From: Bacteroidetes bacterium 43-93
GTDB taxonomy: Bacteria; Bacteroidota; Bacteroidia; Chitinophagales; Chitinophagaceae
Direction: 5' to 3'
Assembly (NCBI GenBank): GCA_001897855.1
Contig: MKUO01000001.1
Location: 1-64,000 of the forward strand
Length of the DNA: 64,000 nucleotides
The notes beneath the pieces were generated by a model. It searched no databases, was not told the DNA's origin, and saw only the letters and a list, made by a program, of their open reading frames with translations. Shown piece by piece: positions 6,613 through 46,586 of this stretch; within the stretch, counting starts at the first letter, position 1, and each line of letters starts with the position of its first letter. The translations under genes and the position numbers were made by a program.

Positions 6613-6633
6613 AATTTAGACTTTTCCGGACAG

Positions 6634-7026
6634 GTGATCGCTATTTTCTATAATTTATTCATTGATCAAACGGCAGAAAAAGGCCGTGGGGTTTTTACCT
6701 CGGAGCCCATTTCTGCGGATACAGTTATAGAGATTTCTCCGGTAATTGTCATGAGCGCTGAAGATCGATTATTGCTTGATAAAACGCTGCTGCACGATTA
6801 TATTTTTGAATGGAAGCCAGATGGACAAAACCTGTGCTGCATGGCACAAGGCTATATATCAGTTTACAACCATTCCTATACGTCCAATTGTGAATATTTT
6901 ATGGACTATGAAGAGGGGACAATAAGTATTAAGACAGTCAGGGAAATTAATGAAGGTGAAGAGCTTACTATTAATTATAATGGTAACTGGGATGATGCTA
7001 CACCAGTGTGGTTTGATGTTTTCTAA
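6634..7026 (+). CDS. Small SET-domain protein
   Basis: A 130-residue protein that is almost entirely a SET fold: GRGVFTSEPI near the N-terminus, YNHSYTSNC (the NHS motif that contributes to SAM binding) at about 77-85 and ELTINYNG near residue 111. SET proteins transfer methyl groups from SAM to lysine; the bacterial target of this single-domain form is unknown. The only start that keeps the first strand is a GTG at 6634. The next gene begins 27 bases after its stop, so the two are probably cotranscribed. Confidence 0.82.
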   Translation: MIAIFYNLFIDQTAEKGRGVFTSEPISADTVIEISPVIVMSAEDRLLLDKTLLHDYIFEWKPDGQNLCCMAQGYISVYNHSYTSNCEYFMDYEEGTISIKTVREINEGEELTINYNGNWDDATPVWFDVF

Positions 7027-9084: not shown

Positions 9085-9882
9085 CTAATACATTTTTTTA
9101 CTGGTTTGTGTTCTGTCCCACCATCCCTCTGTTTTCCAGTTCCATGCAAAAGGCATCAGTATAAGGGAGAAATTTACGTTTGATTTACCTGTAAGTTTAA
9201 ATGAGGATACTACATCATTGAAGTTGCCCTTGATGCCACCATCCTGGGTGATCAATGGCACATTGCCAAATGAATACATCATACGTATTTTAAAGCAAAT
9301 ACCTGCGCGGATGCCTGCTTCGGCTTTTATATAGGGGCTAACGGCAGAATTAAGCCCTACGTTATCATCAAATGCGGTAACATAATATGCAGGCAATACA
9401 CCTGCACCTAGGCTGGCGCACATACGTTGGTTTTTACTGGTAGTAGCATCACAACCAAATTTAAAATCCAATCCTACAGGAACACCTATTTGGCCGGTTA
9501 CGCCCGAAAAGTTAAAACCTACGGCTGAGAATAGATCATTGCCAATGTTTTTCCACCATAATATGTTGTCAATAAGATTTACATCTACGGCAAGGCAACT
9601 GGCACGTCCCAAATGTGCAATTGGAAAATAAGTACCTATCATAAATCCATAAGCAGCCTTGGTTTGTACCGTTGTTTTAAAGGGCTCATCTGTGATGGTT
9701 CCTCCGTCGGCAGATGTATAAGACCTTCTTTGTCCATCATAATCGGCTGAAGCAGTAACGAAAGAATACCCCATTTCGTATCGCTGTATCACCTTTGGAA
9801 GGCGGAATTGAGCATTTGAAGTAAATGAAAAGGCCGATAATAATACGGCAATAGCAACAAGGCTTTTGTATTTAGTAGTCAT
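9085..9882 (-). CDS. Exported protein of unknown function, probably outer-membrane
   Basis: A 265-residue protein with a clear signal peptide (SFTSNA-QFRLPK, cleavage near 25). The rest alternates hydrophobic and polar residues with many aromatic ends, ending RTQTSKKMY, compatible with a small outer-membrane beta-barrel, but no family was recognised. The ATG at 9882 is preferred; a TTG two codons upstream is in frame. It has its own terminator and is separated from the sigma-factor gene by a divergent 115-bp intergenic region. Confidence 0.7.
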   Translation of the reverse strand: MTTKYKSLVAIAVLLSAFSFTSNAQFRLPKVIQRYEMGYSFVTASADYDGQRRSYTSADGGTITDEPFKTTVQTKAAYGFMIGTYFPIAHLGRASCLAVDVNLIDNILWWKNIGNDLFSAVGFNFSGVTGQIGVPVGLDFKFGCDATTSKNQRMCASLGAGVLPAYYVTAFDDNVGLNSAVSPYIKAEAGIRAGICFKIRMMYSFGNVPLITQDGGIKGNFNDVVSSFKLTGKSNVNFSLILMPFAWNWKTEGWWDRTQTSKKMY

Positions 9883-13747: not shown

Positions 13748-14098
13748 ATGAGAACGATTCTTACCGCTTTTATGGTTTGTATCATGTTGTCGTCGTGCAA
13801 CGAAGGTAAACCCAAGGATATCTTAGATGCTCGTCAAATGGAGGCAGTACTCACTGATATATACCTTGCGGAGGCTAACAGTACGCTTGTTAATGACAGC
13901 GCCCATACAATTCGTAACAGAAATATAGACTCTTTGGCAGTTTATTATAAAGCTATTCTTACCCATCACAGTATCAGTATGGAAAAGCTTACCAAAAGTG
14001 TAGATTGGTACAAGAGAAACCCGGAAGAGCTCGATACCATATATGCGCGTGTAATTACAGACCTCAACAGGCTGCAAAGTCAGTATCCTCAGAAATAA
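13748..14098 (+). CDS. DUF4296 lipoprotein
   Basis: A 116-residue protein with a lipoprotein signal peptide (lipobox LSSC, Cys17) and a helical mature part with ILDARQMEAVLTDIYLAEA and WYKRNPEELDTIY, the DUF4296 pattern. It begins 2 bases after porD, so it is the third gene of the coaBC-porD unit. Its function is unknown; the genetic company suggests an envelope role. Its stop lies 5 bases from the stop of the convergent aminotransferase gene, with no terminator between them. Confidence 0.8.
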   Translation: MRTILTAFMVCIMLSSCNEGKPKDILDARQMEAVLTDIYLAEANSTLVNDSAHTIRNRNIDSLAVYYKAILTHHSISMEKLTKSVDWYKRNPEELDTIYARVITDLNRLQSQYPQK

Positions 14099-44597: not shown

Positions 44598-45149
44598 ATG
44601 CAAAGAAGAGGTAAACCAAATTTTAAACCAAAACAAGTACAAAACGAACACCGTTTAAATAGAGAGATCACTGCACCTGAAGTGCGTTTGATAAGTGATG
44701 GAATGGAGCCGGCAGTATACCCCTTAGCAGAAGCTTTAAAGCTTGCGGAAGAGCAGGGTGTTGATCTGGTTGAGATATCTCCTAATGCGGTTCCTCCGGT
44801 TTGCCGTATAATAGATTATCGCAAGTTTCTTTACGAGCGCAAAAAGAAAGAAAAGGAACAAAAGGCCAAGGCAAAGCAGTCAGAGGTGAAGGAAATACGT
44901 TTCACTCCTAATACCGATGAGCATGATTTTGACTTTAAGGCCAAACATGCCGAAAAATTTCTCCAGGAGGGTAACAAGGTTAAATGCTACGTTCAATTTA
45001 AAGGACGTGCCATCATGTTTCAGGAGAGAGGCGAATTATTACTGCTGAAGTTTGCAGAACGCCTTGCAGAGGTAGGTTCATTAGAATCTATGCCAAAGAT
45101 GGAAGGAAGGCGTATGCTGGCAATTTTTACTCCTAAAAAGAAGAAATAA
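44598..45149 (+). CDS. infC: Translation initiation factor IF-3
   Basis: A 183-residue IF-3 with the N-terminal domain (NEHRLNREITAPEVRLI, AEEQGVDLVEISPNA) joined by a lysine-rich linker (ERKKKEKEQKAKAKQSEVKE) to the C-terminal domain (IRFTPNTDEHDFDFKAKHAE, FKGRAIMFQERGELLL). It checks the initiator codon and keeps ribosomal subunits apart. It starts at an ordinary ATG rather than the rare AUU of E. coli. The genes for L35 and L20, which normally follow, are absent; the duplicated element at 45.29-45.47 kb takes their place. Confidence 0.97.
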   Translation: MQRRGKPNFKPKQVQNEHRLNREITAPEVRLISDGMEPAVYPLAEALKLAEEQGVDLVEISPNAVPPVCRIIDYRKFLYERKKKEKEQKAKAKQSEVKEIRFTPNTDEHDFDFKAKHAEKFLQEGNKVKCYVQFKGRAIMFQERGELLLLKFAERLAEVGSLESMPKMEGRRMLAIFTPKKKK

Positions 45150-45211: not shown

Positions 45212-45242
45212 TTGTTTAGAATCAAAAGGCAATGTACATTTG
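45212..45242 (+). promoter_or_regulatory. Promoter in front of the first 59-bp element
   Basis: TTG (45212-45214), a 20-base spacer, TACATTTG (45235-45242): a full Bacteroidota consensus. No protein gene of normal size follows, so it should drive a short RNA from about 45247. Confidence 0.7.
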
Positions 45243-45246
45243 CAGT

Positions 45247-45344
45247 TAGAAAGAGGCCATATCAACGCATAAGCGTTTTTATATAAGAAGTTTTCATGGT
45301 GATAGGGTTTATAGGGGCTGGCCTGTTCTCAGGCTGGCTTTTTT
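45247..45344 (+). ncRNA. Putative small RNA 1 (duplicated 3' module)
   Basis: A transcript of about 98 nt is predicted between the promoter above and the terminator at 45317-45344. It would contain a small 5' hairpin (AACGC/GCGTT, loop ATAA, 45264-45277), the 45289-45316 single-stranded-looking part and the terminator. The same region can be read as a 28-codon peptide from 45296 (see the findings). No known RNA family was recognised. Confidence 0.5.
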
Positions 45345-45347
45345 ATT
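45289..45347 (+). repeat. 59-bp direct repeat, copy 1
   Basis: Copies 1 and 2 match at 56 of 59 positions, 119 bases apart. Each begins AGTTTTCAT, continues GTGATAGGGTTTATAGGGG and ends in a hairpin and six T. In copy 1 the hairpin is 45317-45325 with 45330-45338 (9 bp, loop TTCT) with two wobble pairs. Confidence 0.9.
45317..45344 (+). terminator. Terminator in repeat copy 1
   Basis: Stem GCTGGCCTG/CAGGCTGGC, loop TTCT, then TTTTTT (45339-45344). Confidence 0.8.
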
Positions 45348-45373
45348 TTAAGAAAATATTTGCAAAAAAAATT

Positions 45374-45403
45374 TTGTTGTGAATTAATCTACGTTTAATT
45401 TTA
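45374..45403 (+). promoter_or_regulatory. Possible promoter in front of the second element
   Basis: TTG (45374-45376), 19 bases, TAATTTTA (45396-45403, 7 of 8 to consensus). It would start RNA at about 45408, exactly where copy 2 begins. Confidence 0.4.
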
Positions 45404-45407
45404 CGTC

Positions 45408-45466
45408 AGTTTTCATAGTGATAGGGTTTATAGGGGCTGGCCTGTTCTCGGGCCGGCTTTTTTATT
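45408..45466 (+). repeat. 59-bp direct repeat, copy 2; putative small RNA 2
   Basis: Differs from copy 1 at 45417 (A for G), 45450 (G for A) and 45454 (C for T). The last two lie in the hairpin and both keep base pairing (U-A to U-G, G-U to G-C), so the stem is retained. If transcribed from the weak promoter above, the RNA would be about 56 nt. The copy ends 25 bases before the start of the secreted-protein gene at 45492 and could act as its leader. Confidence 0.85.
45436..45463 (+). terminator. Terminator in repeat copy 2
   Basis: Stem GCTGGCCTG/CGGGCCGGC with two wobble pairs, loop TTCT, then TTTTTT (45458-45463). Confidence 0.8.
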
Positions 45467-45491
45467 ATATTTACTCCCTCAAACACCCGCA

Positions 45492-46586
45492 ATGCCCCGT
45501 TTATTTTTCTTAGCACTACTATTGTCTGTTTGCACAGCCGGCGTATTCGCCCAGCCTTTAGCGTACTATGTTAATCTTCAGAACCAGGTAATGGTTTGGG
45601 ATAAAGGCATGATCAGAAAAGTTGACTACCTGGAGCCAACAGAAGTAAAGACAGGCAGGGTAGCGATTCCATACCTTGATAATTCCCGTTCCTTCAAAAT
45701 TTATTACGGTGGTGGTGTACGCACCGTTAATATCGGTTTCACCAATGAATTCCAGGTGAGTGATAACCTTGTAGCATTTCTCAATAGTAAATCATTAAAT
45801 GTTTTCGAAAAGGGAACTGTCAAAAACCTTTGTACTTATTGCACACAATATTTTGTAGGTGATAGTGTTATCTTATTTTTTGATGGGGTAAGAAATGAAT
45901 ACAAAGCATATTATGGAGGGCAGATATACCCGATAGAAGGTTTCCTTGCAGGCAATCCGTTGGAGGTAATTAAAGTATCCGACAATATCATTGCCTACGA
46001 TAATTACGCCAACCAGTTCCGCATATTTTATGATGGCAACATTATTAAGCAGGAAGACTATGCTGTTAATAGCTTTGATGCAGGCCGTAATACTGTTAGT
46101 TATGTTGACATCAACAAGCAATTCAAAATATTTCATGCCGGGCAAACATTTGTGGTAGAAGATTTTGCACCACTCAGTTCGCAGGCGGGCGACAATGTGG
46201 TAGCTTATACATCAAGCGACGGGTATTTTAAAATTTTTTATGGCGATAGCATTCATGTTGTAGGTTACTTTACGCCAACTGATGTAAGGGTAGCCGATAA
46301 TATAGTAGCTTATCGGGATCCAAGCGGCTATTTCAAGGTGTTTTATAAAGGCGTTACCTATAGCCTCGAAAACTATTATCCTGATAAATATGTGGCGCAG
46401 TATAATTCTCTTGCCTATGTCAATGCAGCCGGGATACTCAGGTTATTTTCAGAGGGAGAGCTTTATGATGTTACTACTTCTCAGCTGGATAGCTGGGAGC
46501 TGAATTATGATGTGATCAAGTACCAGATAGGTAAAAACATGTTCCGGATATACTATAAAGGGCAGGACTACGACGATAACGAATAA
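45492..46586 (+). CDS. Exported protein of about nine 40-residue repeats, function unknown
   Basis: A 364-residue protein with a signal peptide (1-20, GVFA-QPL). The whole mature part is made of about nine repeats of 38-45 residues, each with a DN-x-x-AY or NTVSY strand, a FKIFY/FRIFY/FKVFY strand, then G and a YxLEDY-like strand; this is the look of a propeller or solenoid. No family was recognised. It begins 25 bases after the second 59-bp element. Its stop lies 2 bases from that of the convergent NlpC/P60 gene, so transcripts from the two genes should overlap. Confidence 0.72.
   Translation: MPRLFFLALLLSVCTAGVFAQPLAYYVNLQNQVMVWDKGMIRKVDYLEPTEVKTGRVAIPYLDNSRSFKIYYGGGVRTVNIGFTNEFQVSDNLVAFLNSKSLNVFEKGTVKNLCTYCTQYFVGDSVILFFDGVRNEYKAYYGGQIYPIEGFLAGNPLEVIKVSDNIIAYDNYANQFRIFYDGNIIKQEDYAVNSFDAGRNTVSYVDINKQFKIFHAGQTFVVEDFAPLSSQAGDNVVAYTSSDGYFKIFYGDSIHVVGYFTPTDVRVADNIVAYRDPSGYFKVFYKGVTYSLENYYPDKYVAQYNSLAYVNAAGILRLFSEGELYDVTTSQLDSWELNYDVIKYQIGKNMFRIYYKGQDYDDNE

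Follow-up and report, generated by a model that had tools for sequence, protein, structure and literature searches.

A probable multicopy family of small RNA genes in Chitinophagaceae, with two copies downstream of infC

Sequence comparisons strongly suggest that two near-identical units found downstream of infC, in the 64,000-nucleotide stretch of DNA analysed here (the window), are two separate small RNA (sRNA) genes belonging to one multicopy family. The complete explanation, in which these paralogous genes would each have their own promoter and intrinsic terminator and would give RNAs acting in trans, is likely as a whole, though less firmly so. The RNA of copy 2 would begin near GUUUUCAUAGU and measure about 55-60 nt, and that of copy 1 would measure about 100 nt, including a 40-nt leader. 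This reading is founded on the dispersal of the copies, on promoter boxes located at a set distance, on a covarying terminator and on the lack of a coding signature. A first-pass annotation had hesitated between twin small RNAs and tandem attenuators; the same four observations support the former, which is the better of the two guesses. The features of the locus are as follows.

44598-45149, plus strand: infC, upstream neighbour (PF00707, PF05198)
45212-45242, plus strand: putative promoter of copy 1, with TTG (45212-45214), N20 and TACATTTG (45235-45242), from the sequence and from the distant box in infC loci
45247-45287, plus strand: predicted 5' leader of the copy 1 RNA, its start being placed by the distance from the promoter box
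45288-45346, plus strand: putative sRNA unit, copy 1, CATGG type; 88.6 bits to the covariance model R1 (copy included in the R1 seed)
45291-45300, plus strand: UUUUCAUGGU, putative pairing segment of copy 1, identical to the FopS start in a local alignment
45301-45317, plus strand: GAUAGGGUUUAUAGGGG, near-fixed core of copy 1 with two UAGGG, from the conservation of TAGGGTTTATAGGGG
45317-45344, plus strand: terminator hairpin of copy 1, stem 45317-45325 with 45330-45338, then six T
45396-45403, plus strand: TAATTTTA, putative promoter box of copy 2, 5/6 match to TAnnTTTG, from the sequence and from the close box in infC loci
45407-45465, plus strand: putative sRNA unit, copy 2, CATAG type; 86.2 bits to R1 (copy included in the R1 seed)
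45410-45419, plus strand: UUUUCAUAGU, putative pairing segment of copy 2
45420-45436, plus strand: core of copy 2
45436-45463, plus strand: terminator hairpin of copy 2, stem 45436-45444 with 45449-45457, then six T
45492-46586, plus strand: 10-bladed beta-propeller protein gene, downstream neighbour (PF21734, 461 bits)

The two copies (45289-45350 and 45408-45469) are 94% identical over 62 nt, with a start-to-start distance of 119 nt. Within a 59-nt unit, 56 positions are identical. One of the three differences lies outside the hairpin (G to A, giving CATGG in copy 1 and CATAG in copy 2), and the two others, A to G and T to C, are inside the hairpin, where both keep base pairing. Both copies share one layout, in which UUUUCAU[G/A]GU is followed by GAUAGGGUUUAUAGGGG and by a hairpin of 9 pairs that has UUCU as its loop; six U come last. 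A mechanical search for terminator-like hairpins returned four in 1.8 kb (1.4 ± 1.2 in shuffles), two of which are those of the copies. All this agrees with the first-pass annotation, which had described the position directly after infC, the identity and spacing of the copies, the two pairing-preserving changes, the terminal hairpins with six T, the TTG-N20 promoter of copy 1 and a weaker promoter ending where copy 2 begins. The secreted-protein gene that it had placed downstream, on the plus strand, encodes a 10-bladed beta-propeller protein.

Using a 108-base query, strong matches (E ≤ 1e-8, a cut that reflects our reading of the match table) were obtained in 19 of 59 genomes. These comprise every genome of the genus (15 of 15) and 4 of the 21 remaining family members, but none of the 23 genomes from the rest of the order. 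The covariance model R1 was built from 52 sequences: two of 73 copies were skipped (no core, or an N), and two of the remaining 54 distinct ones were left out as diverged. R1 matches 37 of 195 family genomes at E ≤ 1e-9, the next best match being at 4e-7. Thus, the idea that homologues might be lacking beyond the strain, which had been considered at first, does not hold. In a sample of the phylum (n=395), only two genomes, both of this family, contain matches at E ≤ 1e-9, and five further genomes give R1 matches of 28-33 bits; matches around E 1e-4, in the family as in the phylum, were taken for look-alike terminators. A pattern scan of named genomes gave at least 118 stretches. Among the matches listed, the hosts include Flavipsychrobacter, Taibaiella, 'Chitinophagaceae bacterium' and many 'Bacteroidetes bacterium' bins, and the labels Azovibrio and Phycisphaerales were taken for misnamed contigs. 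Because the same element recurs in dozens of genomes, it is not a product of chance. No further strong copy is found in the 3.99-Mb genome (27 contigs) beyond these two, and copy number is higher in some relatives, one of which (G007) has seven places at E ≤ 1e-5. The element is therefore most likely a multicopy, clade-wide sRNA family of related environmental bacteria. Nothing reaches the Rfam 15 thresholds in the window, so that a match to a described RNA family, also envisaged at first, is limited to a FopS look-alike. Among the open-licence papers listed, no published description of such sRNAs in Taibaiella, Flavipsychrobacter or Chitinophagaceae was found.

Several observations point to selection acting on an RNA. 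In the 52-row alignment, 99.1% of the stem cells are paired (89.1% in shuffles). The covariation score reaches 0.430, whereas shuffles give 0.220 and sliding gives no more than 0.099. Both sides have changed in six of the nine stem pairs, which 29 of 500 shuffles match and which is the least extreme of five covariation measures; the rows being related, such shuffle counts are not to be read as probabilities. The suggestion that the hairpin changes favour selection on RNA, drawn initially from the two copies alone, is thereby extended to the family: the covariance-model search in Bacteroidota that had been proposed with it yields clade-wide homologues and a covarying hairpin, and coding signature is absent. 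TAGGGTTTATAGGGG is intact in 68 of the 73 copies found by similarity, the other five comprising one with an N and four diverged ones. Folding z-scores range from -2.5 to -3.6, and the predicted centroids of the 62-nt and 48-nt forms consist of a single-stranded 5' part followed by the terminator hairpin. In the predicted 104-nt RNA of copy 1 (45247-45350), the leader segment GGCCAUAUCA pairs with UGAUAGGGUU, a part of the core; going by this fold, the leader might mask the core. Leaders differ much among relatives, and in the alignment that of copy 1 shows low conservation except for the last bases before TTTTCAT.

The promoter boxes were studied by reference to the Bacteroidota consensus TAnnTTTG. 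Canonical sigma-ABfr promoters are mentioned in PMC11697453. In 117 non-redundant copies carrying TTTTCAT, boxes with at least 5/6 matches are commonest at -26 (21 copies) and -25 (9 copies) from TAGGG, whereas farther upstream the mean is 1.9 per position and the maximum 5. A box at -28 to -24 is present in 34 of these 117 copies (7.6% in shuffles) and missing from 83; windows farther upstream have a box in up to 17 of 117, which partly corresponds to the distant promoters of first copies. Among 16 non-redundant copies without TTTTCAT, 13 have a box at -17 to -11 (9% in shuffles), most commonly at -15 (7) and -14 (4). When the RNA lacks its first ten bases, the box is thus found about eleven bases closer, and in both forms the predicted start therefore coincides with the unit's 5' end. 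Of the 85 places away from infC, 48 have a close box; a control window gives 10.

At infC, 51 distinct loci with copies were counted, 36 with two copies, 14 with one and 1 with three; 5 are cut by a contig end. These loci were retrieved because they hold a copy, so they cannot reveal infC loci free of copies. In the 37 loci that have more than one copy (two or three), the CATGG type comes first in 36 cases; this first copy has a 6/6 TAnnTTTG box 50-85 nt before TAGGG in 32, and never has a close box (0/37). The second copy is always of the CATAG type (37/37), with a close box (at least 5/6) in 33 cases and a distant one in 1. At infC, the use of a distant box by the first copies explains why these TTTTCAT copies lack a close one. 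Judging from this sequence pattern, the infC copies are two old paralogues in a fixed order and not the result of a recent duplication.

The genomic settings were surveyed in 167 places picked by an exact TAGGGTTTATAGGGG, in which the core is consequently fixed by construction; at least one of them (L293:13124), and probably a second, correspond to runs within integrated elements instead of sRNA copies. De-duplication of this set by flank may remove from an infC locus a copy identical to that of another genome, and the infC figures given above come from the recount of the 51 loci. It could be argued that the copies are tandem leader or attenuator elements of a 5' untranslated region controlling the beta-propeller gene, as first suggested along with the twin RNAs. 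The order infC, copies, propeller gene is conserved, with infC upstream on the same strand in 82 of the 167 places and the propeller-gene cluster downstream on the same strand in 80, and copy 2 ends about 28 nt before the propeller start codon. The association is nevertheless not constant, since the propeller cluster follows in just those 80 places. Moreover, 85 places have no adjacent infC and many different neighbours, none of the other neighbour clusters having more than 5 members. In most infC loci with several copies, the second one is preceded by a close box of its own, box and core stay together in the copies without TTTTCAT, and two terminators in tandem would be an odd design. Control of the propeller gene by the copies is therefore improbable. 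Even less probable is small mobile or repeated DNA of the REP type, or plain repeated terminators, without RNA function. Many copies do lie at unrelated sites, five of them on integrated elements in four genomes, but a near-fixed core beside diverged flanks, compensatory changes in the stem, and a copy-specific base and promoter ordered alike at 37 infC loci argue against such an origin. As to a short ORF encoding a hydrophobic peptide (MVIGFIGAGLFSGWL...), for instance a small membrane peptide or a type I toxin, an open frame with ATG exists in 91 of the 167 places. ATA, however, replaces ATG in 59, the frame runs into the terminator, 58 different peptides would be made, 9 of them with an in-frame stop, and variation is spread over the three codon positions (0.109, 0.070 and 0.106). 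With a variable start codon and all three codon positions varying, this reading was rejected and has hardly any credibility left; examination of the 167 places for a short ORF gave no coding signature. A point against the sRNA reading is that 15 of the 167 places overlap an ORF of at least 80 aa by more than 25 nt.

The sRNA reading calls for comparison with FopS (RF04319, BTncRNA_FopS). In Bacteroides, PMC11697453 describes 14 FopS paralogues made of a single-stranded 5' part and a terminator, FopS being conserved within Bacteroidaceae. Translation of a susC message is halted when FopS-10 binds beside its start codon, a repression that the RRM protein RbpB counteracts. Like FopS, the RNAs proposed here are short, intergenic, present several times per genome and started from a box. 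They share with FopS the first ten bases, the alternation of G and A, and a single-stranded 5' start, UUUUCAU[G/A]GU, followed by a Rho-independent terminator; the 104-nt form of copy 1 is an exception to this build, as its leader might fold onto the core. Unlike FopS, which has AUUAGAUUUAAGGUUAAUAAA, they have GAUAGGGUUUAUAGGGG as core, and they differ also by their Chitinophagaceae hosts and by the conserved pair at infC. By analogy, they probably work like FopS, although they are not filed in that family, being far below the Rfam cut-off. Could they nonetheless be true, diverged FopS members, derived from a common ancestor of Chitinophagaceae and Bacteroidaceae? The shared order of parts, first bases and alternation speak for it, and the CATGG form aligns with FopS better than all but 90 of 20,000 shuffles. 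On the other hand, the two copies reach 20.4 and 20.9 bits with the RF04319 model, for a gathering cut-off of 56, and none of 38 relatives has a match over that cut-off; at E ≤ 1, matches occur in 33 of the 38, partly on these copies and all below it. Over the phylum sample, FopS passes in 5 of 395 genomes, none of this family. In addition, the likeness is modest, with 1,165 of 20,000 shuffles aligning as well as the CATAG form (11,244 for the core alone), and pairing to AUGAAAA could yield the same bases by convergence. Common descent is accordingly a minority option, to which we give about one chance in a handful or slightly better. A little less probable still is the most elaborate scenario, that of a separate sRNA family of Chitinophagaceae whose double-UAGGG GAUAGGGUUUAUAGGGG would dock an RRM protein, with an ancestral infC pair whose two promoter types would divide the labour, and with integrated elements that would carry the sRNA and would mimic the protein site by same-sense (UUUAUAGGG)n runs.

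Some related searches deserve mention. A phylum scan with TTTGN{2,9}TTTTCATRGT proved unspecific, as this FopS-like start pattern occurs in 306 of 395 genomes and its reversed control is widespread too; it also misses copy 2 here, which has an A as the last base of its box. A FopS-like stretch from a different family of the class (L353, G319:C1:2970447-2970515) has TTTTTCATTGT and a terminator, and scores 43.9 bits, under the cut-off. One genome that also has FopS (G564) contains many TTTGRATTGACTCTTTTCATGGT repeats. The L20 leader (RF00558), which resembles the element by its AU-rich stretch and terminator, was discarded, with 30.2 bits for copy 1 and 21.0 for copy 2 against a cut-off of 58.7; the single match to rplT lies on another contig (C18:420884), the element being on C1. 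Other weak Rfam matches, including DUF3800-I and STnc340, are below the cut-off and cover mostly the terminator.

Regarding the mode of action, translation would be blocked through base pairing between the 5' UUUUCAU[G/A]GU and either ACCAUGAAAA or ACUAUGAAAA in the vicinity of start codons. This pairing is proposed because the build, the first ten bases and the G/A alternation match those of FopS, and for repression in trans at start codons, based on this analogy, we consider the chances to be even. In B. thetaiotaomicron, GibS, as presented in PMC7366714, also uses a 5' single-stranded seed that pairs at translation starts; the likeness would be one of mechanism, GibS differing in being a single gene with two seeds. 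Pairing was evaluated on 464 kb, or about 12% of this genome, with 374 genes. In absolute terms, gene interiors give stronger pairing than starts. Compared with 40 shuffled RNAs, the 5' part is favoured at starts, with 1 of 40 shuffles as good; since CAU pairs with any AUG, this preference is close to trivial as a test. An anti-start seed within the core is unsupported on the same genes, 16 of 40 shuffles being as good. SusC/TonB-type targets are not preferred either, with a mean of -11.4 against -12.3 for all genes, on the 16 of 30 loci that were usable (14 were dropped, an in-frame ATG not being found where expected). Finally, the reverse complement of TGATAGGGTTTATAGGG, allowing two mismatches or fewer, has 76 matches in the 15 genus genomes: 54 are exact and were taken for sRNA copies, 3 are diverged copies and 6 are integrated-element runs. 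The remaining 13, to be compared with 11 in a reversed control, led to rejection of a long target for the core.

As the core does not favour starts, protein docking is the likelier reason for its constancy. The core GAUAGGGUUUAUAGGGG, with its two UAGGG boxes, might then be a docking site whose likeliest partner would be an RRM protein, a proposal that we regard as tentative and rather unlikely to hold. The eukaryotic RRM protein hnRNP A1 prefers UAGGG. This genome has four RRM domains, and RRM genes occur in 35 of 39 genomes, including genomes without the sRNA, which makes their co-occurrence with the sRNA uninformative. In B. thetaiotaomicron, RbpB is reported to prefer GUAGGAUA (PMC12119571), and these bacteria are described, in PMC11697453, as lacking classical sRNA chaperones. 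If true, docking of an RRM protein would define a second RRM-sRNA network, in environmental Bacteroidota, and the near-fixed core offers a defined bait for the protein partner. More generally, the occurrence in Chitinophagaceae of a FopS-like build around another core suggests that sRNAs in several copies, directed at start codons, recur in the phylum. The infC pair, with its distant and close promoter types, makes a division of labour between paralogous sRNAs testable.

Carriage by phages or plasmids was also considered and set aside, as nothing matched in phage and plasmid collections. One IMG/VR contig contains the 17-mer and lacks the hairpin. In a viral contig (L243:2795-2811 and 6632-6648), GGGTTTATAGGG occurs in two short gaps just before start codons, with no hairpin, possibly by chance. 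The five copies associated with mobile DNA lie near genes of one integrated element (G002 twice, G004, G006 and G007). A relative of this element, 83% identical over a single protein, is carried by the genome studied here (L315:3241-3948, that is, G000:C1 at about 407.2-407.9 kb); the surrounding stretches retrieved showed no sRNA copy. Three of the elements (L293, L294 and L297) contain one to three same-sense TTTATAGGG repeats that resemble the sRNA core and lie between two element genes without a Pfam or PHROG match. A serine recombinase is confirmed in one of them (L294: 6565-8217, minus strand). In that element, the sRNA copy is located near 9758 on the minus strand and the TTTATAGGG repeats near 14040 on the plus strand, about 4.3 kb apart.
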